A stretch of 11,203 nucleotides of DNA from Thalassiosira profunda. Lineage: Eukaryota; Bacillariophyta; Thalassiosirophyceae; Thalassiosirales; Thalassiosiraceae. A model generated the notes under the pieces. It had not been told where the DNA came from. It saw only the letters and a list, made by a program, of their open reading frames with translations, and did no database searches. The position numbers and the translations under genes were made by a program. The stretch is from positions 1 through 11,203 of the forward strand of contig JALLAP010002358.1 in assembly GCA_036939355.1 (NCBI GenBank), read 5' to 3'. Positions 1 through 11,203 of the stretch are shown in pieces (the first letter of the stretch is position 1; each line of letters opens with the position of its first letter).

Positions 1-680
1 TCTCCTGATTCGTAATGAGCCGGAAGAGGTCGAAGAAGTGGCAGCACTTCTCCACGAGGGTGTCGCCCGATTTTGAGACATCCTTGTTCCATTCCTCGAT
101 CTTGGACAAGAAGGGGTAGCGGTTTTCTCGGATGCAGCACTTCTTAATGTCGCCGACTTCCGGCAGAAGTTGCAGCAGCTTGTTGATCGCCGGGATGAAA
201 CGATACTCCATTGCAACCCAAATTTTGGCTTTTAGATTCGCAGCCTTCAGAGCGGCAACCTGCTTCTCGCTGACGGCCACCGGCTTTTCGCAGAGGATGG
301 TGATGTCGTGTTTGCCCCAGCGAAGGAGCTGCGGCGTGTGCATGAAGTTGGGAGAAGCAATCACGAGCAAGTCGATGTCGCCGACGCGCTCGAGCAGCTC
401 CTTCTCGTCGCGGAATACAGTAGGGGGCTCGCCATCGATCATCGACAACGCCGTATCGGTACTGGACTTGGTAGGGTCGCAGAGGAACTTGATCGCGAGA
501 TTGGAATACTGCGGTGGAGGATTCCGGGGAGGCGATGATGATGGTGATGTGCACAAGATGTGAGCATGACGCCAAGAACGCCCACGCCCGGCACGCCAAC
601 GAACTCACCTTGCCGATGTAGGAGATGTGCTCCTGCCCCATCATCCCGCATCCCAGGATGGCGATATTGATTCTCGTCAT
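1..680 (-). CDS. Gfo/Idh/MocA-family NAD(P)-dependent oxidoreductase, N-terminal part (partial at window edge)
   Basis: Two exons are visible: 680..609 and 508..1. They are separated by a 100-nt phase-0 intron with donor AAG|GTGAGT and acceptor CGCAG|T. The spliced product gives 193 residues and continues beyond the left edge. The N-terminus has a Rossmann glycine motif (ILGCGMMGQEH, G10-x-G12-x-x-G15). Further along are the family's EKP motif (C97-E98-K99-P100), an inositol-dehydrogenase-like VAMEYRFIPA segment near 123-132, and GDTLVEKCCHFFDLFR, where H181 and D184 sit in the usual catalytic region. Members oxidise or reduce sugars, inositols and related polyols with NAD(P); the substrate cannot be read from the sequence. 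The start ATG at 680 gives the Rossmann strand at once, so no targeting peptide is expected and a cytosolic enzyme is likely. It is divergent from the TauD-AKR fusion gene across about 400 bp. The family call is firm; the specific activity is unknown. Confidence 0.9.
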
Positions 681-1081
681 ATTGCAATTCGGCGGCTGGA
701 GTTGTGGCGATGATGATTGAGCCTGCTATGGTATGATTGGCGCCGAGGAGGTGCTCGGCAGAGCTGTCATTGGTTGACGCCTCGGTGGACTTCACTTCAG
801 GGGGCGCCAACTCTACACTTTTCGTACAGAATAAGCCAGAGCTTTATTGGGACGCCTCCTGGCTTCAGGACCTGCGACTACATTTTCCGTACAGAATCTT
901 ACCTTGACACCATACACTCTCTGAAACAACTGCCCGAATTGTTACAGAAGTTGTCGTGTCAAAGTGTCAAAGGGAGGTGCCGAGTGCCGATGCACCCACC
1001 CATCACATCATAACTTCCATCACCACTTCACCTTATCCAGAGCATTGATAGCATCGGGAGCATCGCCGAGGAGCCGCCGCC
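681..1081. promoter_or_regulatory. Divergent intergenic region between the Gfo/Idh/MocA gene and the TauD-AKR gene
   Basis: This 401-bp stretch separates two divergent start codons and must hold both 5' UTRs and promoters. I see no convincing gene or canonical TATA box. It contains a direct repeat, CGTACAGAAT, at 823-832 and 888-897. It also contains two back-to-back tandem duplications, TGTCAAAG x2 at 957-972 and GTGCCGA x2 at 977-990. A C/A/T-rich tract runs from about 990 to 1033. The ATG at 1082 sits in a strong Kozak-like context (GCCGCCATGAG). Any regulatory role is inference from position. Confidence 0.5.
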
Positions 1082-3405
1082 ATGAGGGTCACGCGGATAT
1101 TGGAGCGCCCGCACCGAGGAGAGAGTTACGGCGACATCAGCCAGGGGCAGTTCGTATCGCTGCTCGCGCAGCACAAGGCGTTGCTCCTGCAAAAAGACGA
1201 AGGCTCCGACCCGTTGTCCGTCGATGACTTCGCTCGCTTCGCCGAGGGGCTGTCGTTGAAACATTACGAGTACGTCGGGGGCGCAGGTGAGTGCCGGAGG
1301 TGCTTGTTGTGCACATCATGTGCACATCATGTGCACTTATTCTTTGCAAATCTAACACATCAACTTCTCTCAGCACCGCGGCGTGTCATCCCCGTCAAAG
1401 CGAATGTGGAAGTATTCACCGCCAACGAGGCCCCTCCCGACCAGCTCATTCCGTTCCATCACGAGCTAGCGCAGGTGGCGGATCCTCCGCAGTACCTCTT
1501 CTTCTACTGCGATCTGCCCTCCGAGACGGGCGGAGAGACTGCATTGATCGATTCAACGCTGGGTAAGACAAACGAAGATGTGCATGTGATTGCCGCTTTC
1601 TCTTGCTAATGAGCTCTTACTTTCATTCATTAGTCTATCGCTACGCGGCGGACAATTTCCCAGAATTCATGGACAAGCTCAAGAAGTTCGGCGCGAGATA
1701 CAAGCGTACTCTGCCCGCCGTGGACGATCCCGAGAGCCCGATCGGCAGATCATTCTACAATGCGTACCAAGTCGACAACAAAATCGACCTCGAGAAGAAG
1801 CTGAACAAGATTGCCGGTCTGGAGTATGAGTGGATGCCCGAGGGCTCGCTCACTGTGACCACTGAACCTATTCCTGGTGAGTTTGAGTGGTTGGCACTTT
1901 CACATGCATAGGTCTTACGTATTGCTCATATTGTGATGTTGCAGCTGTGAAAATGATCGAGCAGCAGCACGGGCACGGCATCTATCAGTGGACCTTCCAC
2001 AACTCCGTCATCGCTGCTTTCTTGGGCTGGGAAGACTGCCGGAACGATCGCACGAAGGCGGTATGCTTTGGAAACAACGATGCAATGGACCCTGCAATCC
2101 TCGCCGACATTGCTGCATTCATGGATCAGAACAAGGTCTCCTACCAGTGGAAGAAGGCAAGCAATGCTTTTTCTTTCATGTGTGCTTTTGTCCCTCAGCT
2201 CAACCATACATATCATACTTCACTGTTTTGCAGGGTGACATCTTCGCTCTGAACAACAGGCTTGTCATGCATTCGCGAAACGCTTTCACCGGAAAGAGGA
2301 GAGTCTACGCTGCAATGTTTGGCGATGTGATGGATACAAGTGAAGTGAAACGCGACGGAGTGGGCCAAATCATTACAGATTTCTCTGCGTTGCAAGTGTC
2401 TGATCCTACCACATTTGGCATGTGGCGCCTCGACGATCCAGAGGAGATTGCGTACAAAGCGATCAAAGCGGGATACCGCCGCTTCGACTCTGCTTGTGAC
2501 TATGGAAACGAAGTACAGACTGGAAATGGTATTCGCCGCGCCATTGAGGAGGGCATTGTGAAGAGAGAGGATCTTTACATCACGACCAAGCTCTGGAACA
2601 CGTATCATCACCCGGAGCACGTCCCGTTGGCGCTCGATCGATGCCTGCAAGACTTGGGGCTCGAGTATGTTGACGAGTTCCTCATTCACTTTCCGATTTC
2701 CATGGAGGTGAGTTCGTTTAGCATTCTTCTACACCGATGGTACGTGTAACAGGCTTCTCTCACTTCGCATTTTTGTCTGCGCAACAGTTTGTACCATTCG
2801 AGCAGAAGTACCCTCCCGAGTGGCAGAACATGAATGGCGAAATGGTCCTCGTGAAGAATGACATTACTGCAACCTGGCGGGCGATGGAGGGCCTCGTCGA
2901 CAAGGGCAAAGCAAAGCACATCGGCGTAAGCAACTTTTGTTGCCAGCACATTCGCCAGGTGTTGAGCGTCGCACGGATCCGCCCCACTAGCCTGCAGATC
3001 GAATGCCACCCTCATCTGTCGCAGCAAAAGCTCGTACGCTTTGCAAGGGAGTCAGGCATTCGTGTGTCGGCTTTCTCGCCTCTCGGAGGGACATCCTACA
3101 TCAGCCTCGACATGGCGACCGAAAACGATCTGCTCTTTGAGAACCCTGCCATCCTTGAGATCAGCAAGAAGCACAACAAATCGGCGGCCCAGGTGATGCT
3201 GCGGTGGTCGATTCAGAGGAACACCCTTCCCATCAGCAAGAGCAGCAATCCAGGGAGGATGGAAGAGAACCGGACCATCTTTGACTTTTACTTGACAAAG
3301 GAGGAAATGAGCGCAATTGACGCACTGAACAAGAATCACCGCTACAACGATCCTGGCTTGTTCTGTGAGGGCGGCATGGGCACCTTCTGTCCAATCTACG
3401 AGTAG
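1082..3405 (+). CDS. TauD/clavaminate-synthase-like Fe(II)/2OG dioxygenase fused to an aldo-keto reductase (sorbitol-6-P/mannose-6-P reductase-like)
   Basis: Six exons: 1082-1286, 1374-1562, 1634-1876, 1945-2156, 2234-2707, 2788-3405. They splice to 646 residues with frame kept throughout. Residues 1 to about 315 match the plant clavaminate-synthase-like type (At3g21360-like). This part has VGGAAPR at 66-71, the metal motif H97-x-E99 in PFHHELAQ, SPIGR, the GWED..ND segment, distal H296 in VMHSRNAF, and 2-oxoglutarate-type arginines R305/R306. After a short linker, residues about 335-646 form an aldo-keto reductase with the complete tetrad D368, Y373, K402 and H435. Other AKR landmarks are GVSNF, QIECHPHLSQ, AFSPLGG, and a cofactor loop with K592-S593, R598 and N602. 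The RAMEGLV segment, IQRNT and the C-terminus resemble aldose-6-phosphate reductases. Introns lie inside both domains, and exon 5 (2234-2707) runs uninterrupted from the distal His of the oxygenase into the reductase. No targeting peptide is evident. Both domains look active; the substrates are unknown. Confidence 0.92.
1308..1337 (+). repeat. Intronic tandem 11-mer TGTGCACATCA (about 2.7 copies)
   Basis: Inside intron 1 (1287-1373) of the TauD-AKR gene the unit TGTGCACATCA occurs at 1308-1318 and 1319-1329, followed by a partial copy TGTGCAC at 1330-1336. The unit contains the palindrome GTGCAC. The same 11-mer appears, sense to transcription, in the intron of the divergent neighbour (complement of 545-555). 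Function is unknown. Confidence 0.7.
2157..2233 (+). other. GC-AG intron (intron 4 of the TauD-AKR gene)
   Basis: The donor reads AAG|GCAAGC and the acceptor TTTTGCAG|GGT. Removing these 77 nt joins two segments in phase 0 and gives the continuous oxygenase sequence VSYQWKK-GDIFALNN. Without removal the frame runs into a stop at 2250-2252 after unrelated residues. No in-frame GT donor nearby gives as good a join. A GC donor with AAG before it and AAG after it is the usual form of this minor class of U2-type introns. All other introns I placed use GT. Confidence 0.85.
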
Positions 3406-3483
3406 GGTTGGGGGTTGACTTGACGGCCGTGGGTTGCGGCGAGGTACTATAGCATTGTATGTAGAAAGTTGTTGTATGCAGGG
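3406..3483. other. Convergent 3' intergenic region
   Basis: Only 78 bp lie between the stop of the TauD-AKR gene (3403-3405) and the stop of the opposing SDR gene (3486-3484). The two 3' UTRs must therefore overlap as antisense transcripts, or be very short. I see no AATAAA. Two TGTATG elements lie near 3456-3479 and may resemble UGUA-type polyadenylation signals on the plus strand. Confidence 0.5.
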
Positions 3484-4332
3484 TCACTTCCGCATCGGAT
3501 CGTTTTGAGGGTTTGCATATTGCCGGATTGAATGCCCTCCGTCGACGTCCAGTACCACCCCCGTGACAAACGGTGCAGTTGCAAGATAATAAATCGACTC
3601 GCCCATATCCTCTGGCTGCCCCACCCGCTTCAACGGCAGACTGGCAGCTGTATTCTCGAGCATTGCATTTCGTCGACCTTCCTCCATATGGTCGAACCGT
3701 TCAGTGTCGCAGAATCCAGGAGACAAGCAGTTGACTCGAAGTCGCGGCCCGAGCTCCAAAGCCAATGATCTCGTCAGCCCCTCCAATGCTCCGTTGGTGC
3801 ATGCAAGTGGCGAGCAGTTGATCCCCGGCCGGCGTCCCAGCACCCCCGATACGAACGTTATCGAACCGCCGCTTTTCAGCCTTGGACTGATGTACTTTGC
3901 AGCATGCACTGCCCCCCAAAACTTGCTTTCGAACAGCGATCGCGTCTCCGATATCGGCAGCTCCGTCACTGGTCCGTGGGGCGCCTTTCCTGCAGTTGAT
4001 ACTACGAGTGCATCCCATTCACCCGATGCAAGGCTCTCTCCAAACGCTTGCACCGCAGCCTCGTCTGTGATATCCAAGCACTGCGTTGATACCGAACCGC
4101 TCGTTTCGGCATCCGCCTCGACTTCTTTAGCAGCGCGTTCCAGCTTCCCCTCGGATCGAGATACGAGCAGGGCGTTGCCGCCACGCCTCACCGCCGCGAT
4201 TGCCGCCGCCTTCCCCATCCCGCTGCTGCCCCCGACGCATATCACATTGATGCTCGGCGGCGCCAGCGACGCCACGCAAGGCGCGCATGCGGCGAAGAGC
4301 ACCAACCAGGTGCAGAAGGCGGTGATGGCCAT
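3484..4332 (-). CDS. Short-chain dehydrogenase/reductase (SDR) with signal-like N-terminus and altered active site
   Basis: A single exon encodes 282 residues. Residues 1 to about 22 form a hydrophobic secretory-type leader (FCTWLVLFAACAPCVAS, followed by LAPPS). The Rossmann fold follows: glycine motif GGSSGMG at 34-40, LDITD at 86-90 and STAG at 112-115 in place of NNAG. FVSGVLGRRPG carries Ser162. ELGPRLRVNCLSPGFCDT and TGVVLDVDGG are classical SDR C-terminal features. The segment that normally carries YxxxK reads L176-A-C-T-N180 just before GALEGL, so both the catalytic Tyr and Lys are replaced. Divergent bacterial SDRs with NGALEGL-like segments exist, so this may be a subfamily trait rather than decay. 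The frame is intact over the full family length. Import into the ER, or into a complex plastid if the organism has one, is possible. The substrate is unknown. Confidence 0.92.
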   Translation of the reverse strand: MAITAFCTWLVLFAACAPCVASLAPPSINVICVGGSSGMGKAAAIAAVRRGGNALLVSRSEGKLERAAKEVEADAETSGSVSTQCLDITDEAAVQAFGESLASGEWDALVVSTAGKAPHGPVTELPISETRSLFESKFWGAVHAAKYISPRLKSGGSITFVSGVLGRRPGINCSPLACTNGALEGLTRSLALELGPRLRVNCLSPGFCDTERFDHMEEGRRNAMLENTAASLPLKRVGQPEDMGESIYYLATAPFVTGVVLDVDGGHSIRQYANPQNDPMRK

Positions 4333-4524
4333 CTCTGGTGTGAACCCAGCGCGGTGGGGGGGGGGGGGGGGCTCTCGTGCCGCCGCCGCCGGGTGATGTA
4401 TTAGGGGTGCAGGAAGAATGTGAAAGATAAATACAAATACAGAAACGTCATTGAAGTTTGAAGACGATCTGATTGATGTATCGCTACTACTAGCCCCCCC
4501 CCGCCGCCACTATCTATCCTCGCG
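4333..4524. promoter_or_regulatory. Divergent intergenic region between the SDR gene and the RPP38-like gene
   Basis: This 192-bp gap must contain the promoters of both flanking genes. It includes a 16-G homopolymer at 4356-4371, an A/T-rich ATAAATA at 4427-4433 that could act as a TATA-like element for either direction, an ACGTCA (CRE/bZIP-like core) at 4445-4450, and a 9-C run at 4494-4502 before the ATG at 4525. These are single motif matches and are weak evidence. Confidence 0.4.
4356..4371. repeat. Poly-G homopolymer (16 bp)
   Basis: An uninterrupted run of 16 G lies 24 bp upstream of the SDR start codon, so it is poly-C on that gene's sense strand. Such tracts slip during replication and sequencing, so the true length is uncertain. 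Confidence 0.9.
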
Positions 4525-5426
4525 ATGCCGTCCTCCCAGCCGCAAAAGCGGCCTCCGCCGCCGCCCCGCACCCACCTCGACAACGAAGACATTCGGTGCG
4601 TCGCATCGCCTTATTCGCCTTCAGGCATATCGGCGCCCGTGGCCTCGGCGGAAGTGAAGGAGGTGCTCCTCGATCGGTTGCGGAAGGAGATCACGTCGAA
4701 GATGGGCGGATCGGTGTGCCGCCGCAGATCTAGCGGTGGAAAGCCGAGTGGGAAGAAGAGGAGACGCGGGGATGGCGATGCATCGATTGATGGCGAAGTT
4801 GGGAGGAAAGGTGATGCACTATCCGCTATGGGCGGTGATGATGCAGCCGCAAACAGGGCAGGCGGAAGTGATGCACCGATGAGCACGGCCGAGTCTGTGG
4901 TGAGGTCGAGGTTCATCGTTGGTGAGTACACATCCTTCAGCGAGAGCATCATTATTGTACTTCGCTCTGCCTTGCAAATCTCTGACGCGACTTTATTGCA
5001 AATGCTTGATCGAATACGTGTGGCGCTGTGATCGTGCATCGGATAGGCATCAATCAGTGCACGCGAGCACTCGAAGGTGCGTGCAAGCGGCGGGCTCAGC
5101 AAACTGCTCAGGGAGCAGAATCAGATGCATCCATGCCATCGCTCGTTCTCTTGGCCCGGGACGTCCGCCCAGCCACCATCATCGCCCACATCTCCATCTA
5201 TGCGCACATCTTGGGCATCCCGACGCTGGTCCTCCCGGGCAAAGCCTCGGCCGAGCTGGGCGCGGCGGCGGGGATACGATCGGTGGCCGCGGCGATATTT
5301 CTGTCGTCTCCGGGAGAGGAAGGGACGCCGGACGACGAGCAGAAGGAACGAGAGTGGAGGGACGCCCACAACGAGGTCAACTCCTTTGTGAAATATGCCG
5401 TGTCCAAAATCCCCAGAGAGGCCTGA
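4525..5426 (+). CDS. L7Ae/L30e-like RNA-binding protein, RPP38/Pop3-like RNase P/MRP subunit candidate
   Basis: Two exons, 4525-4921 and 5047-5426, are joined across a 125-nt phase-1 intron (GTTG|GTGAGT to GGATAG|GC). They encode 258 residues. The join gives SRFIVGINQCTRALE, which fits the start of RPP38-type L7Ae domains (a GxNxVTRALE pattern). The domain continues with LVLLARDVRPATIIAHI, GIPTLVLPGKASAELG and GIRSVAAAIFL, at about 128-217. The N-terminal half is disordered. It has a Pro run at the start and a basic GKKRRRGDGD stretch that would serve as a nuclear or nucleolar signal. In other eukaryotes RPP38/Pop3 binds kink-turn-like RNA in RNase P and RNase MRP. The acidic, Lys-rich tail after the domain is unassigned. 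Another L7Ae-family protein remains possible because this superfamily diverges strongly. The alternative downstream GTG-initiated frame at 5028 is intron sequence up to 5046. Confidence 0.75.
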
Positions 5427-5642
5427 GTCTTCCGGTGGCACTGCGATCCAGCAATTGATCTCGCGAGGCGGTGGCTGTGGAAGCGACAGCAAGCTGTCGG
5501 ATTTCACCGCGTTGACACTTCACGCCAAAACTCTCGGCAGAAATCAACGCACAAATCTCTTGGAAAGTGCCTCGCCCCTATCGACCTTGTATCGACCGAG
5601 GCATCAGAGAGGCCAGGCGCTACAGTTTCAGCACCCGCCTGC
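5427..5642. other. Intergenic spacer between the RPP38-like and PARP-Deltex genes
   Basis: This 216-bp gap lies between two genes on the same strand. It must hold the 3' UTR of one and the promoter and 5' UTR of the next. It contains an inverted repeat at 5484-5499 and a direct repeat TATCGACC at 5579-5586 and 5590-5597. I see no TATA box or AATAAA. Confidence 0.5.
5484..5499. repeat. Inverted repeat CGACAGC-AA-GCTGTCG
   Basis: The two 7-bp arms are perfect complements around an AA centre, so RNA could fold with a 6-bp stem and a CAAG loop. It lies 58 bp past the stop of the RPP38-like gene. It may sit in the 3' UTR, but short inverted repeats also arise by chance. Confidence 0.5.
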
Positions 5643-8600
5643 ATGCCTGCCATGAGCGCCAAAGGCACCAATGAGTCGGCCGAGTCGGCCGACCAAGCCT
5701 ATGCGGCGAGACTGCAGCACGCGGACGACCGAGCGGCCATGATGAATTCCGACACCGGCAAGGCTTTCCGCCTCGTCGAGAGCGTGATCTCCATCGCGCG
5801 CACTATCAACGAGGCCTATCCGACGTTTGCCGAGCACAAGATCGAGGCTGTGTCCCACGACGATATGGTTTGGTTCGCCGAGCACATGATGGGCCTGCAA
5901 AAAGAGTACGGAGAGAGTCAGCAGAGGGAACACACCAAGGTTGACGTCGGCTTCCATTACACTCAATCAGATAACATTCCGAAGATACGCACGCACGGTT
6001 TATTGACGAAGGGCGAGCGCAAGGAGAAGAGCGTGACTTCCGCAAAGACCAACGCGAGCTTTTTTGGTGACGGGTAAGAGAGTTTGATGTTGTAGCTGCC
6101 TCGTGTCTGTGCGTCCATGTCTTGCCGAGCTCACCTCACTTCTTTCCTTCGGACTTGTTCCTGATCAGCATCTACACGGCGAACAATCCAACATCGTTTC
6201 GGCATTTTGGAGATGTTGGCCTGATTGTAGGAAGGCTCAAAGGCAAGGTCTTCCGAACCACTAAGTCGCTTTCTTCCGGCACTGACATCGGTGGCGCGAC
6301 GACCGTAATTGGAGACAAGCTAACGACCAGTCCCAAGCTGGACAGCAATGGCTTTCCTCTCGACGCTCGCACCAACGAGGTCGTCCTGCGAACGTCAAAA
6401 CAAGTCCTGCCAATGATTCGTTATAGTGACACGCTTCTCAAGTCGCCCGAAGGGAAGCAATGCATCCAGGACATGAAAGAGAATCTACTTCTGCTCATGT
6501 ATGAGTTCTTCAATAACGAGGGCAAGCCGCCGGCGGCCTCGCTTCCAGATCAGAAGACCCCGTCGGCGGCGGCGAGTGCATCCGCGAGGGCGGCGTTTGG
6601 TGATGTTGGTGCTTCTGCCTCCTCGGGGATGTCTGGAAAGGCACCCACCTCGCCCTTTGCCACACCGGGCGGGCTGCCGGCGCCTACAAAAGCATCGGTG
6701 GCCCACGCGCCCCCTTTTGGAGCACAGTCGTCTTCAGTTGGCACTTCCAGCCCAGCCAAATCGCCCGTTGGCTCTACGGGGGGTGTCGCATTTGGCGCTG
6801 CCTTTGGTGGAACGCAATCCTTTGGTACCATTTCTGCAGTCAATGCGCCTGCAAAGTCTCCTTTCGGCTCTACGACTAGTAAGGGCTTTGGTATTGGTGC
6901 TGCGCAGTCCCCGGGCAGTGCGTTTGGTGGTGGCGGACGATCGCCTCCGCATATCGGTGGCTTCAAACCCAGAGGTGCTGTTGGAATGCCATCACCCTTC
7001 AAGTTAGCGTCACCACCAACGAGCCCGATGAAGAGCAAGTCTTGCTAAAACTGCTGCACCAGCTTCTTCTGCCAAGCCTCAATTTGGCGCAATATCGAGC
7101 GGCGTGACCGGCGGCTCAGGCGCCTCGTTTGCTCCCTCGCCGAGTCCTGTTGCTGCTTCAGCATCTGCGTCCAGTGCTCCGTTAGGTTCTTTGCCTGGTG
7201 GCGGCTCTGCCGTTGGTGGGGGCGCTGCAGCCTCTAGATCACCAGTCTCTCCCAGCAGTCAGTTTGGCGCCACTCCCACCGCGGCGGGACCAGCCACCAA
7301 AGTTTCAGCCCCAGTTTCTGCTGCAACGAATTCATTGGCTGCTTTCCAGGTTGGGCAGGGCGGCTTGCCAGAAATTAAGATCCGGGCACGCAGGAATCTT
7401 CGCAGAACTGTCAAAAAGGAGCACGTTCAACACAACCAGCCTGTCTCAAGCTCGCCCTCAGCGGCAAAGGCAACGCCGAAAGTGGGTGGTGGTACTGTGA
7501 GGGAAAGTGGCTCTAACCTCAAGGACCCTCCGGAATGGGCCACTGCTGGTGCTGGCGCTGGCGCTGGCGCGCTCTCATCTGCGGCGAACCCTGTCCCAAA
7601 GAGCAACGACCCCCCAGCAGCGACGTCCAAGCCTCCGGCATTGAAATCTGACCCAAATGCCACTTCTTCGACTTCTCCAGTGGGCGGGCCTTCCGAGACC
7701 TCTTCGTCTGGAAGCAGTAAAGCGGCGGCAAAGAATGTGGTCGCAAGTTTGATTCCTTCTCTCGAGGAAACATCCCACTTGGCAACTTCCATCGCCCTGC
7801 ACTTGTGGTTCTTTGTGGCAGTTACATCGCCAATGAGCCCTGCTCGAGCATTTGCTGTGCATGCATTACTGCAAATCACGCTCCAGTTGCTCAATGCCAC
7901 GAGCCCGCCGGAGCTGTCTGCAGAGGCTCAATCTCCATTGGAGTCAGCATCAAAGAGCGCCACTCTTGTCGCTGTGGCTGATTACAAACGAATGCTGACC
8001 AAGTTCTACATTGAGGTCAATCTGAAGAAGGTTGCACAGGTTGATGCAATTTTGAACAAGTACAAGGTAAGTGATGAGGCGCTGGACTGGAAGAACACTC
8101 TCGATATCTTCGTTGACTCACCTGCTTGCGTACTGACCAGGGAAAAGAGCCCGAAATGTTCGTGAAGCTCGCCATGAAGTACAACACACCGAACGCATTG
8201 AACGAACTCTTCCTGGCCCGGGTCAAGGACATCGACAGAAAGGATTGCCTCGCTTTGACAAAGCTCTACATCCAAGTCTTCAACCCAGCCAAGGCTGCGG
8301 GCGCTGAAAAGTACTTATCTCAGCACAAGGTGCGTTCGATCTCGCAACGAGCAGTGTCTACGTTTCGCATTCTCACACTTGGTTACTCCACATCCGCTCT
8401 CTCAATTCACAGGGTAAGGAAGCTGAGATGTTCGCGAAGCTTTCGGAGAAATGGCGCACGGTAAATCCACTGGAAGTAGAGACGGAGGCAACAGCGCCTC
8501 CTGCAACAGCTGCTGCTCTACCCACGGCAAAGCCACAGAACCAGTCTGCTCCAACGCTAGCGACGAAGCCGAGCGCCCCCGGCCCATCTCTAGCTGCAAG

Positions 8601-10274
8601 TGCAGCTGCGCAAGTCTCGCCTCTTTTTGCCAGCGCGAGCGCACCTGGACCAGCGCCTCTTTTTGCATCCGCAAGCGCTCTTTTGACGGCTCCTTTCGCA
8701 TCTGGTGCTGAACTTGCTGCGCCCAAGACTCCTGGCAAGGAGGTTGATCCCTCCAATTCCAATTCTCAGGCTGCCTCGCCCACTGCACCACGCAGTATCA
8801 GCGCCGGAGGCTTTTCGTTTGAGGGAACGGCTGCCTCTGCTGCCAGTACTTCTGTCAGAGCTGTGTTTGGCTCAAGCAACTGTGGAGGATTCTCGTTTGG
8901 TGATGTCGGAGGCAAGCCGGTAGAGAAAAAGGGAGAAGCTGCCGCAACCAATGGGTTCTCGTTTGCAGTCTCTACAGGAACCAACGCCACCGCGTCAACC
9001 TCTACTGGCAAGAAGAGGGAAGGATCCACTGCATCCAATAGTCCTTTCGCTCCCAAGGTATCAAACAGCGCGTTCACTCCAACAGCCGCAGAGTTCAGAG
9101 CGCAAAAGGCTTCTGCTGCACTTTCTTCAGCGGCAGACTCAACAATGAAATCATCCAGCACGACTGTAGCGAAGAACAGGGAGAGTGCATCCGCTAAGCC
9201 GACGTCGAACAGTTCCTTTTCTCCGGCAACTGCCTCGCCTACGCCCTTTGCTGGATCATCTCCGAAGAAGGGACATGCCAATACGCCAAAAAAGACTTCC
9301 AGCGGCGGCGTCCTCCCTCCAACAACAGCAGCGTCGCAGAAGAAGGAAGAGTCAAAGCCATCAGTAAAGGCTTCCAGTGCCCTATCGACGGTGCCGAAGA
9401 GTCCTTTCCAACCCAATCCGACGTTGAGCAAGGCTTCTGCATTCAAATCCTCTGGAGCGTCGCCACCGAAGAAGAAGAGCGCATTCCCTCCCACGAAGTT
9501 CACTGCTCCCCAAACACTCTCTTACTACGCTCCGCAAACCCTGGATGGTGGGATTCCACCCGCGGCACTCTGTCAGCCTCGATCGGCCTGCAACATGGAT
9601 GAGGATTGCGTTGTCTGCCACGAAAAGCTGTCAACGGATAGCTGCGTAGCACTGTCACGATGCGGCCACGTCTTCCACTCGGAGTGCATCGAACAGGCGT
9701 TCAGGATGAAGCCGCAATGCCCCGTGTGCCGCGAACCAGTTGGTGAACCGCGGGGGAAGTCTCCGTCGGGTTCGATGGAAATTTCCATCACGCCCACATC
9801 GTGCTCCGGGTTCCAAGGGGACTCGATTGCCATCAAGTACCACGTCCCGTCGGCCACTCAACGGAGCTACCATGACCGCCCAGGTGCCTTTCATAGTGGG
9901 AAACACGCGACAGCCTATTTGCCCAACACTGTCGAGGGCCGGGGCATTCTCAAGAGGTTGGCGTACGCGTTCACGCACGGCCTCACGTTCACAGTGGGCA
10001 CATCGGCCACGACCGGGCAGACGGACCAGGTACGTTTGTTTGCCTGCTTTGTTTCTCTCTGCCAACTTCTCGCTGAATCCCGACTTCTCTACTGATCGTT
10101 TCTCAGTGCACCTGGGCTTCCATCCACCACAAGACGTCTACACATGGCGGCGCGGCGAAGCACGGATTTCCCGATGCTCACTACTTTGTGAATTGCAACG
10201 GCGAATTGGACGGCCTTCGTGTTCCTCCCGCGCATTCACTCGACTACAGTGGAAACGAGTTCACCGGCCCGTAG
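5643..10274 (+). CDS. PARP-like ADP-ribosyltransferase - FG-rich linker - RING-H2 - Deltex C-terminal (DTC) fusion protein, with one frame break
   Basis: Five exons: 5643-6073, 6169-8066, 8141-8329, 8413-10029 and 10107-10274. Skipping one base in 7032-7046 gives one frame of 1433 residues. About residues 100-230 look like a PARP-type catalytic domain. They carry H105 in GFHYTQSDNIPKI, then HGLLTKGE, Y146 in GDGIYTANNP, and E214 in TNEVVLRTSKQVLPMIRY, so a His-Tyr-Glu triad is present. The usual Gly after the His is Tyr. Ser/Ala/Pro-rich tracts with FG motifs follow, then a hydrophobic stretch (about 681-697) and a duplicated helical repeat (749-857). A PPKKKS basic signal lies at 1190-1195. 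The RING-H2 has C1238, C1241, C1256, H1258, H1261, C1264, C1275 and C1278. The DTC domain (about 1290-1420) shows H1326 in YHDRPG, ATAYLPN, FTVGTSATTG, IHHKT (1384-1388) and HGFPD (1397-1401). Deltex RING-DTC modules bind E2-ubiquitin and ADP-ribose/NAD. ATG 5652 is an alternative start. Confidence 0.83.
6594..7268 (+). repeat. FG-motif-rich low-complexity coding region, first block
   Basis: Within exon 2 the protein is Ser/Ala/Gly/Pro-rich and shows repeated FG dipeptides: AAFGDVG, PPFGAQ, VAFGAAFGGTQSFG, KSPFGS, KGFGIG, SAFGGGG, KPQFGA and SQFGAT. These resemble nucleoporin FG repeats. SPxK and KSP motifs occur among them. The block spans the frame break near 7040, with FG motifs in frame on both sides, which supports one continuous gene. 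Confidence 0.7.
7032..7048 (+). other. Frame break (+1) inside the PARP-Deltex gene
   Basis: The upstream frame reads through SPPTSPMKSKSC and stops at TAA 7046-7048. The downstream frame opens just after a TGA at 7029-7031 and continues LAKTAAPASSAKPQFG with the same composition. The switch must therefore lie in about 7032-7046 and equals one extra base. No good intron explains it: the only candidates of the right length end at a GAG acceptor (7099) and would remove coding-like sequence. A sequencing or assembly error, a true frameshift mutation, or programmed +1 recoding at TGC-TAA-A are all possible. Confidence 0.8.
7983..8466 (+). repeat. Duplicated helical repeat in the PARP-Deltex protein
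   Basis: Two copies of a helical unit of about 46 residues are visible. Unit 1 is coded at 7983-8066 plus 8141-8194 and unit 2 at 8243-8329 plus 8413-8466. Shared positions include LTK(F/L)YI, a Lys-rich helix, then (Y/H)K|GKE(P/A)EMF(V/A)KL..K(Y/W).T.N. In both copies a phase-0 intron falls exactly before GKE. Exon 3 (63 codons) therefore equals one period, which points to an exon duplication. I do not recognise a named family. Confidence 0.75.
8806..9450 (+). repeat. FG/FSFG-rich low-complexity coding region, second block
   Basis: In exon 4 the motifs GGFSFEG, AVFGSS, GGFSFGD, NGFSFAV, NSPFAP, NSAFTP, NSSFSP, TPFAGSS, KSPFQP and SAFKSS recur in a Ser/Thr/Lys/Pro-rich background. The GFSFG core is the classical nucleoporin FxFG form. 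The region probably stays disordered and links the helical repeat to the RING-DTC module. Confidence 0.7.
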
Positions 10275-10438
10275 AGAAAATGTCGATTGTAGGCGCCGAT
10301 GTCTTGTTTGTTTCACCTTAGTAGCGGCTTCTCCTTCTATGCTTTGTAGGGAGGCCAAACCTTAATTGATGGACCATCTAGCTTTTGCCCTCCATAAGAC
10401 TCCCTTCTGCTATCATCCCCACATTGTGAGTTCTCTTT
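10275..10438. other. Convergent 3' intergenic region
   Basis: These 164 bp lie between the stop of the PARP-Deltex gene (10272-10274) and the stop of the opposing YCII gene (10441-10439). The stretch is T-rich with TTGTTTGTTTC near 10308-10318 and shows no gene. No AATAAA is visible on either strand. Confidence 0.5.
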
Positions 10439-11000
10439 TTAGTTGGTCCCCACCACCACGCTCCACTCCGCAATCGAATGCCCGGTCACGATGCCGTTCG
10501 ACACGTACGGATCCCCGGCCACGAACTTCTCCGCCGCCTCCTTCGTCGTGAACACAAACAGGGCTGTTGTATGCGTTGCGTGCAACGTTGGAGCCAGCAT
10601 TACAAGGAAGATTGCAAATACCCGTCAATATCAATTGCGCAAATTCAACCCTGCACATTTGCAGTTGCCAACACTCACCGCCGTTCGGCACCCCCTCCCC
10701 GGGCACCAACGTCGGTCCGCCGCTCACACACGTGCCTTCTTCGATCATATCTTTTGCCAGCCCAATGTGTCCCTCCCGATGCGGGCCGCGCTTTTCCAAC
10801 ACATCCGGGATATACTCGTAATTTAGGAGATAGCGCGTCGGCGGGGTCGAGAAGAGGGCGGTGGATCCGGCGTAGGATCGGCTGATGGGCGTCGTTGATG
10901 GGTGATGGAAAGTGGTGAGGGCCGGGGCGAAAGCGGCCGCCGTGCGCGCCGCGACGCCCATGGCGGCGGAGCGGTGTAGCAGGCGCATCGATGATACCAT
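10439..11000 (-). CDS. YCII-related domain protein with organelle-type N-terminal extension
   Basis: Two exons, 11000..10679 and 10563..10439, are joined across a 115-nt phase-1 intron (GGCG|GTGAGT to CAACAG|CC). They encode 148 residues. Residues about 57-146 match the YCII (YciI-like) fold: RYLLNYEYIPDVLEKRGPHR, then EGHIGLA with the conserved H78. GGPTL.PGEGVPNGALFVF follows, then FVAGDPYV with D125, NGIVTGHSIAEWSVVVG and the end. YciI-type proteins are small ferredoxin-like-fold proteins with a His/Asp pair, often of unknown substrate. The first about 50 residues are rich in Arg, Ala and Ser with no acidic residue, which suggests a mitochondrial or plastid transit peptide. An AAAFAP segment (21-26) recalls the ASAFAP motif of complex-plastid targeting in diatoms and relatives. 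ATG 11000 is the first in frame; ATG 10988 is also possible. Confidence 0.88.
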
Positions 11001-11203
11001 GACGGGTGCAGGGCGGCGAATTGAGGAGGCCAGGCGTGGTGGAGGTGGGGTGCGGTGCGTGGGCGGGGGAGCGTCCACTTTATCATGTTGTTTTACTGGA
11101 GATGTAAAAAAGCTAGCTCGACTCGAATTCCTACGTAGACGGTAGTACCTTTATTCGTGTGTCACATGTGACTTTTTTCCTGACGAAAAGGGGGGAACGG
11201 GCA
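11001..11203. promoter_or_regulatory. Upstream region of the YCII gene
   Basis: No gene is seen. The stretch carries several palindromes close together: AGCTAGCT (11111-11118), GAATTC (11125-11130), CTACGTAG (11131-11138, with an ACGT core) and GTCACATGTGAC (11161-11172). They lie about 110-170 bp upstream of the YCII start codon, where promoter elements would be expected. The assignment is positional only. Confidence 0.4.
11161..11172. promoter_or_regulatory. 12-bp perfect palindrome GTCACATGTGAC (E-box-like)
   Basis: The site is fully self-complementary and contains CACATGTG, the kind of core bound by dimeric bHLH or bHLH-ZIP factors in other eukaryotes. It lies about 160 bp upstream of the YCII start. 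No binding protein is known here. Confidence 0.45.

Follow-up and report, generated by a model that had tools for sequence, protein, structure and literature searches.

A diatom gene that joins an ADP-ribosyltransferase-like domain to a RING-Deltex ubiquitin ligase through a middle part that looks nucleoporin-like

The DNA analyzed here, referred to throughout as the window, comprises 11,203 nucleotides (positions 1 to 11,203, forward strand) of contig JALLAP010002358.1 from the diatom Thalassiosira profunda (GCA_036939355.1). It is located on the contig that we number C1261 of this assembly, which holds 21.8 Mb in 1366 contigs. The forward strand of the window carries a gene with an ADP-ribosyltransferase (ART)/PARP-like domain at the N-terminus, a RING-H2 finger and a Deltex C-terminal domain (DTC) at the C-terminus, and a long middle part made of linkers and a helical repeat. 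The gene begins with the ATG at 5643 and its stop codon ends at 10274, both as given in the initial annotation of this DNA, which had proposed a fusion of a His-Tyr-Glu PARP-like domain with a RING-DTC ubiquitin ligase. The exons cover 5643-6073, 6169 onward, a continuation in a shifted frame to 8066, 8141-8329, 8413-10029, and 10107-10274, and the introns of the gene have GT-AG ends (Table 1).

The DTC in the window matches Pfam PF18102 at E=9.1e-37 (126.6 bits against a cut-off of 25). It is directly preceded by the RING-H2 finger, which matches zf-RING_2 at E=4.9e-11 and has all 8 of its 8 metal ligands, so that the C-terminal RING-H2 and DTC module of the initial annotation is confirmed. 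Residues His582 and Glu608 of DTX2 have their counterparts in H954 and E980 of the window's Deltex frame, with the spacing of 26 residues retained; we placed the DTX2 numbering on the PDB chain using this spacing together with the alignment. In excerpts of published work on DTX2, these two residues are needed to ubiquitylate ADP-ribose and are proposed to activate its 3' hydroxyl (PMC7615817, PMC10810221), and the DTC His contacts ADP-ribose (PMC7615817). The RING and the DTC reach significance in each of the three genes considered here, namely the window gene and those on contigs C982 and C1329, and the catalytic His and Glu of the DTC are invariant among the three. Among sequences of solved structures in the PDB, the C982 copy matches DTX1 (E=1e-30), DTX2 (2.7e-28), and DTX3L (6e-25).

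Table 1. Features of the fusion gene in the window (coordinates in nucleotides of the window)
Feature	Coordinates	Strand	Evidence or remark
Exon 1: helical segment at the N-terminus and beginning of the ART-like domain, including the His of the His-Tyr-Glu motif	5643..6073	+	ATG at 5643, open frame, GT at 6074
Intron 1, 95 nt, splits the ART-like domain	6074..6168	+	GT-AG; not in the C982 paralog
Exon 2 open frame: remainder of the ART-like domain and FG-rich linker	6169..7048	+	TAA at 7046-7048
ART/PARP-like domain, residues about 100-232	5940..6433, intron 1 included	+
FG-rich linker, 192 residues	6470..7048	+	FG count against shuffles
Frame break, the sole overlap of both open frames	7032..7048	+
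Shifted-frame continuation: low-complexity linker leading into the first part of the helical repeat	7049..8066	+
Helical repeat region ("helical" by eye)	7923..8508, spans introns 8067-8140 and 8330-8412	+
Intron	8067..8140	+	Position common to the C982 paralog
Intron	8330..8412	+	Position common to the C982 paralog
RING-H2	9607..9729	+	Pfam zf-RING_2 4.9e-11; ligand pattern
DTC, interrupted by intron 10030-10106	9754..10208	+	PF18102 9.1e-37
Intron in the DTC	10030..10106	+	GT-AG; not in the C982 paralog
DTC catalytic residues	His 10125-10127, Glu 10203-10205	+
Last exon	10107..10274	+	Stop 10272-10274

A paralog of the window gene is found on contig C982, where our own gene model gives a protein of 1,043 residues in three exons. 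In the first exon of this paralog, the ART-like domain and the linker continue uninterrupted into the beginning of the helical repeat. Because this exon runs from the ART-like domain into the helical repeat, the fusion architecture is established independently of the break in the window frame. The two C982 introns match in position the window introns at 8067-8140 and 8330-8412. In BLAST comparisons of the two proteins, the N-terminus is 43% identical over 281 columns and the helical repeat 70% over 143 residues, while the RING-DTC part is 52% identical over 231 residues; this last match was obtained from a BLAST of the C-termini alone and was not listed by the longer run. In the alignment, the ART part is 48% identical across the N-terminal 262 columns, and the linkers of the two proteins do not align. 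When the C982 ART domain is used as a query against the assembly, three matches are returned, which are the domain itself and the two window exons.

The third gene, on C1329 (L007 3635-6196, minus strand), has the domains in the opposite order, TAZ-RING-DTC-PARP, in one open frame of 854 residues counted from the first Met. All four domains are recognized by Pfam (TAZ 2.6e-14, RING 3.3e-6, DTC 6.5e-45, and PARP 2.5e-8, the last with 34.1 bits against a cut-off of 26.7). The nearest PDB sequence to its PARP part is PARP16 (E=0.002), followed by CCCH-type antiviral protein 1 (PARP13), PARP10, and PARP3, all of them weak matches. A search of the assembly for the DTC family gave at least four matches at at least three loci. 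Since the window, C982, and C1329 each carry an ART-like domain, this holds for 3 of the 3 Deltex loci found in the assembly, which may be incomplete. The presence of an ART-like domain and a RING-DTC in a single polypeptide, as initially annotated, is thus upheld by the window, by the unbroken C982 paralog, and by the reordered C1329 gene, with the reservation that the window's own frame is broken.

Other ADP-ribose-related genes have also been observed in the assembly. A fourth PARP-like gene, C810 (L009 1607-3307, minus strand), has a hydrophobic C-terminus and appears PARP16-like by eye; its PARP family score is 25.3 with the whole frame and 26.9 in the genome search, against a cut-off of 26.7. 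The sole macrodomain match found in the assembly (L062, C847:1620-1967, minus strand, E=5.4e-23) is a possible ADP-ribose eraser or reader.

The N-terminal domain is more divergent, and its assignment has been approached by alignment and by profile comparison. The alignment places the His-Tyr-Glu (H-Y-E) residues of the window protein at H105 (nt 5955-5957), Y146 (6173-6175), and E214 (6377-6379), and the C982 domain has all three as well. With hhalign, a profile of these two ART sequences compared to one of nine bacterial PARP domains gives a score of 33.4 (P=6e-5, probability 65%). None of 200 column shuffles reaches this score, the maximum being 20.4, and the reversed profile scores 14.4. 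The nine domains are those of the 11 listed PF00644 matches that lie over the cut-off, L053 and L054 having been dropped as below it. An earlier hhalign run with three PARPs gave P=7e-4 and a probability of 10.7%, and the part containing the Glu was aligned in that run. Motif scans yielded 18 prokaryotic loci, 3 of them PARPs by eye, and 2 viral loci, neither of which is matched by the PARP profile.

Several results weigh against this assignment. The significant hhalign match spans the H and Y motifs only, its probability is modest, and the Glu falls outside it, being placed by alignment. A Pfam scan of the full window protein does not match PF00644 at E<=0.1, and the window domain alone matches none of the Pfam families at E<=10, a scan in which the filters of HMMER remove the majority of matches with E above about 0.1. 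The C982 domain alone gives DUF7002 (0.033), DarT (0.13), and PARP (0.23; 11.4 bits against a cut-off of 26.7), all weak; of these, DarT and PARP are described in Pfam as ADP-ribosyltransferase families. Searching the PDB with a profile of the ART alignment returned just two TPR-repeat sequences, which are matched by the N-terminal helices. The fold is not established structurally, since the two AlphaFold runs on the C982 copy, one from the single sequence and one from six rows, have predicted local distance difference test (pLDDT) values of 31.8 and 33.0. Given the failure of Pfam, a profile match limited to the H and Y, a Glu located by alignment, and models of low confidence, we use the term "ART/PARP-like" for this domain and leave it outside PF00644. 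For residues 100-230, then, a significant PARP-fold match is absent from Pfam and present in the profile-profile comparison; the H-Y-E residues proposed in the initial annotation stand, whereas membership of PF00644 does not.

PARP domains have also been surveyed in Armatimonadetes. PF00644 occurs in 10 of 201 genomes of this sample at E<=0.001 and in 8 of 201 over the cut-off, and PARP1-like catalytic domains with H-Y-E motifs are seen at L031, L037, and L038.

From this architecture, that is, the domains, their order, their residues, and the unbroken paralog, we infer an activity, a reaction in cis, and a location for the protein. We propose, with confidence that does not go beyond an even balance, that one protein composed of an ART-like domain, an FG-bearing and helical nucleoporin-like middle, and a RING-DTC is a two-step writer of ADP-ribose-ubiquitin held at or near the nuclear pore. 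The ART domain would transfer ADP-ribose from NAD+ onto itself or onto nearby proteins. The RING-DTC end would then bind the ADP-ribose, and a ubiquitin-conjugating enzyme (E2) would attach ubiquitin to the ADP-ribose or to the target, which would yield an ADP-ribose-ubiquitin mark in cis. The middle would keep the enzyme at the pore or close to it. The proposed writing of ADP-ribose followed by ubiquitylation fits the conserved residues. The part of this interpretation already contained in the initial annotation, ART-like and RING-DTC domains in one polypeptide, is supported; the GLEBS motif of C982 and the reversed order of C1329 lay outside the window that it covered.

The middle of the window protein looks nucleoporin-like, a feature that, like the frame break, goes beyond the otherwise partly confirmed initial annotation. 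The first linker of the window contains 8 phenylalanine-glycine (FG) pairs in 192 residues where 2.0 are expected, and none of 2000 shuffles has as many. The helical repeat is 82% identical across 72 residues to a repeat at the FG-rich C580 locus (L023). This locus has a 523-residue frame with 26 FG, several copies of the helical repeat, and an upstream frame with two stretches of RanBP-type zinc fingers (E=5.8e-16); the zinc-finger frame adjoins the repeat frames, possibly in one gene. In C982, one exon matches the GLEBS motif of Nup98 with 27.6 bits against a cut-off of 27, and the assembly search for this motif yielded no other GLEBS. In these three respects the proteins resemble Nup98 and the FG nucleoporins, and they differ in that the window gene is without the Nup98 autopeptidase domain. 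That domain is found on another contig, C981; because it sits near the contig start, the assembly may lack the N-terminal region of ordinary Nup98. A link between a PARP and Nup98 is reported from animals, where PARP11 modifies Nup98-Nup96 according to an excerpt of PMC9189837.

On the other hand, the middle could be a mere helical repeat common in this genome together with low-complexity sequence, in which case the pore link would be spurious and the protein would act elsewhere, for example on chromatin or in the cytoplasm. We lean against this alternative but consider it a serious one, as a number of observations speak for it and against a pore location. The helical repeat is also found on C1292 (L024 2827-4008, plus strand), in two stretches of a 393-residue frame that is without FG. 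In the two later window stretches the FG counts are at chance level, being equaled or exceeded in 256 and 663 of 2000 shuffles, and in C982 they surpass it only slightly (57 and 35 of 2000). A GLEBS is not matched by Pfam in the window protein, and with the whole C982 protein the GLEBS score is 26.8, just below the cut-off. The identity of the repeat to an FG-rich locus with RanBP-type fingers, the FG excess of the first linker, and the unique GLEBS exon of C982 argue against a spurious link. We treat the association of the proposed writer with the pore as a lead drawn from sequence kinship.

A second alternative accepts the fused protein as real but takes the ART-like domain to be a non-catalytic module that binds NAD+ or ADP-ribose or acts as a scaffold, as in PARP13, so that the protein would be an ordinary Deltex ubiquitin ligase (E3) targeted by its other parts. 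Animals have inactive PARP domains. This alternative is further favored by the strong divergence of the domain, which does not reach the Pfam cut-off, and by C1329, where the H and Y are present and an Asp, in an alignment made by eye, stands at the position expected for the Glu. On the other hand, the window and C982 retain every residue of the H-Y-E motif in spite of an identity of just 48% between the two domains. We regard a non-catalytic role as unlikely, although by no means negligible.

The main difficulty of the window gene itself is that its frame is broken once. The frame of the ART-like domain stops at the TAA at 7046-7048, and the Deltex frame, which is open from 7032, is shifted. 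The break may be an unrecognized intron, or a small length change either in the gene, as a real lesion, or in the assembly. A DNA search for a second copy of this stretch found none in the assembly. The Deltex frame has 267 open codons from 7032 until its first Met at 7833, a run that is equaled in 3 of 20,000 mononucleotide shuffles. Because these open codons precede the first Met of the downstream frame, a coding region that continues across 7032-7048 is suggested despite the break.

The break and its TAA, together with the lack of a second assembled copy for comparison, would also agree with two genes or a decayed copy, in which an ART/FG gene would end at 7048 and the Deltex gene would be separate or dead, with C982 and C1329 as the only intact fusions. 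This reading we consider improbable. In addition to the Met-less run that opens right at the break, the two frames overlap by just 17 nt, and downstream of the break the metal ligands of the RING and the catalytic residues of the DTC are intact. Seven GT-AG pairs located by a motif search might also carry the frame across, although such pairs arise by chance as well. The claim that the window holds one gene is thus strengthened by the unbroken paralog and the Met-less stretch, and weakened by a frame that is not continuous.

A chimera of unrelated sequences, conceivable in an assembly as fragmented as this one (1366 contigs), is rejected for the architecture and has a negligible probability, as the gene on the separate contig C982 has the same domain order, the two shared intron positions, and identities of 43%, 70%, and 52% for the ART, helical, and RING-DTC parts. 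A PARP gene and a Deltex gene that merely adjoin each other have likewise been ruled out as a general explanation, because the single C982 exon spans the ART domain into the helical repeat and C1329 is one open frame.

The proposed writer can be compared to several known systems. Deltex ligases are able to ubiquitylate ADP-ribose, according to parts of two papers (PMC7615817, PMC12407064). In cells, as the second describes, the mono-ADP-ribose of tankyrase receives ubiquitin from Deltex ligases (PMC12407064). Tankyrase with DTX2/DTX3, as outlined in that source, resembles the present case in that a PARP and then a Deltex make an ADP-ribose-ubiquitin hybrid, and it differs in that separate proteins act in trans (PMC12407064). 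The animal PARP9/DTX3L heterodimer, in the excerpts that describe it, also teams a PARP-family protein with a RING-DTC E3. There, two polypeptides are involved; here there is one, the H-Y-E is kept, the middle is nucleoporin-like in appearance, and macrodomain, KH, and WWE domains are unmatched in Pfam. DTX1 and DTX2 share the RING-linker-DTC arrangement with its catalytic His and Glu, while in the present proteins the WWE is unmatched by Pfam and an ART-like domain is part of the same chain.

Joining the two pathways has a precedent, because PARP6/8-like proteins fused to an E2-like (UBCc) domain are described, in passages of two papers, from fungi, moss, and a green alga (PMC1266365, PMC4245714). 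These fusions likewise place ADP-ribosylation and ubiquitin domains in one polypeptide. The partner there is not a RING-DTC but an E2-like fold, for which an excerpt of the 2005 paper uses the name "ubiquitin ligase domain" (PMC1266365), and no known ADP-ribose-ubiquitylating module is present. A PARP-RING-DTC fusion in either of two orders, or with a nucleoporin-like middle, was not found in the open-access literature searched, among the titles and abstract starts listed and the passages retrieved. Unannotated relatives in other algae are likely. Pattern searches of viral contigs gave 59 matches with the ART alignment and 24 with the DTC alignment, and those of prokaryote genomes gave 20 with the DTC alignment; none of these was confirmed, and they are silent on the spread among algae.

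The present loci bear on the questions of which transferase supplies ADP-ribose to Deltex ligases and of whether the coupling is ancient and deliberate. All three Deltex loci found have an ART-like domain, in two orders, which amounts to "Rosetta stone" evidence and would argue that ADP-ribose writing and ubiquitylation form one pathway. A single protein of this kind offers a system in which coupled ADP-ribosylation and ubiquitylation can be tested, and its nucleoporin-like middle hints at a place in the cell. A broader proposal, which we put forward tentatively and consider doubtful as a whole, is that nuclear-pore components of a photosynthetic stramenopile could be complete ADP-ribose-ubiquitin writers, whose ART domain would mark pore or cargo proteins for conversion to the hybrid by the RING-DTC of the same chain, that this lineage would have joined ART and Deltex at least twice in opposite orders, and that every Deltex found in the assembly would be self-equipped with an ADP-ribosyltransferase.

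Further genes lie upstream of the fusion gene in the window. At 1082-3405 (plus strand), exons encoding a TauD-family dioxygenase lead into an aldo/keto reductase; the end of the TauD match (E=3.7e-4, under the cut-off) and the beginning of the Aldo_ket_red match (4.6e-11) fall in a single open frame at 1937-2749, suggesting a TauD-aldo/keto reductase fusion gene. A short-chain dehydrogenase is encoded at 3487-4509 (minus strand; adh_short_C2, E=8.7e-36). The short gene at 4525-5426 (plus strand) has a later frame, 5010-5426, that matches L7Ae/L30e/Gadd45 (1.5e-5) and a basic stretch ahead of it; its product is possibly an Nhp2-like RNA-binding protein.

The spliced genes and nuclear-pore families of the assembly mark it as eukaryotic, and its light-harvesting proteins point to a photosynthetic stramenopile. 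Elsewhere in the assembly there are 32 matches to the light-harvesting family (PF00504). For one of these proteins, 15 solved sequences are matched at E<=1e-40, and 15 of the 15 have names of the fucoxanthin chlorophyll a/c (FCP) type; a second protein matches two LHCI chains.

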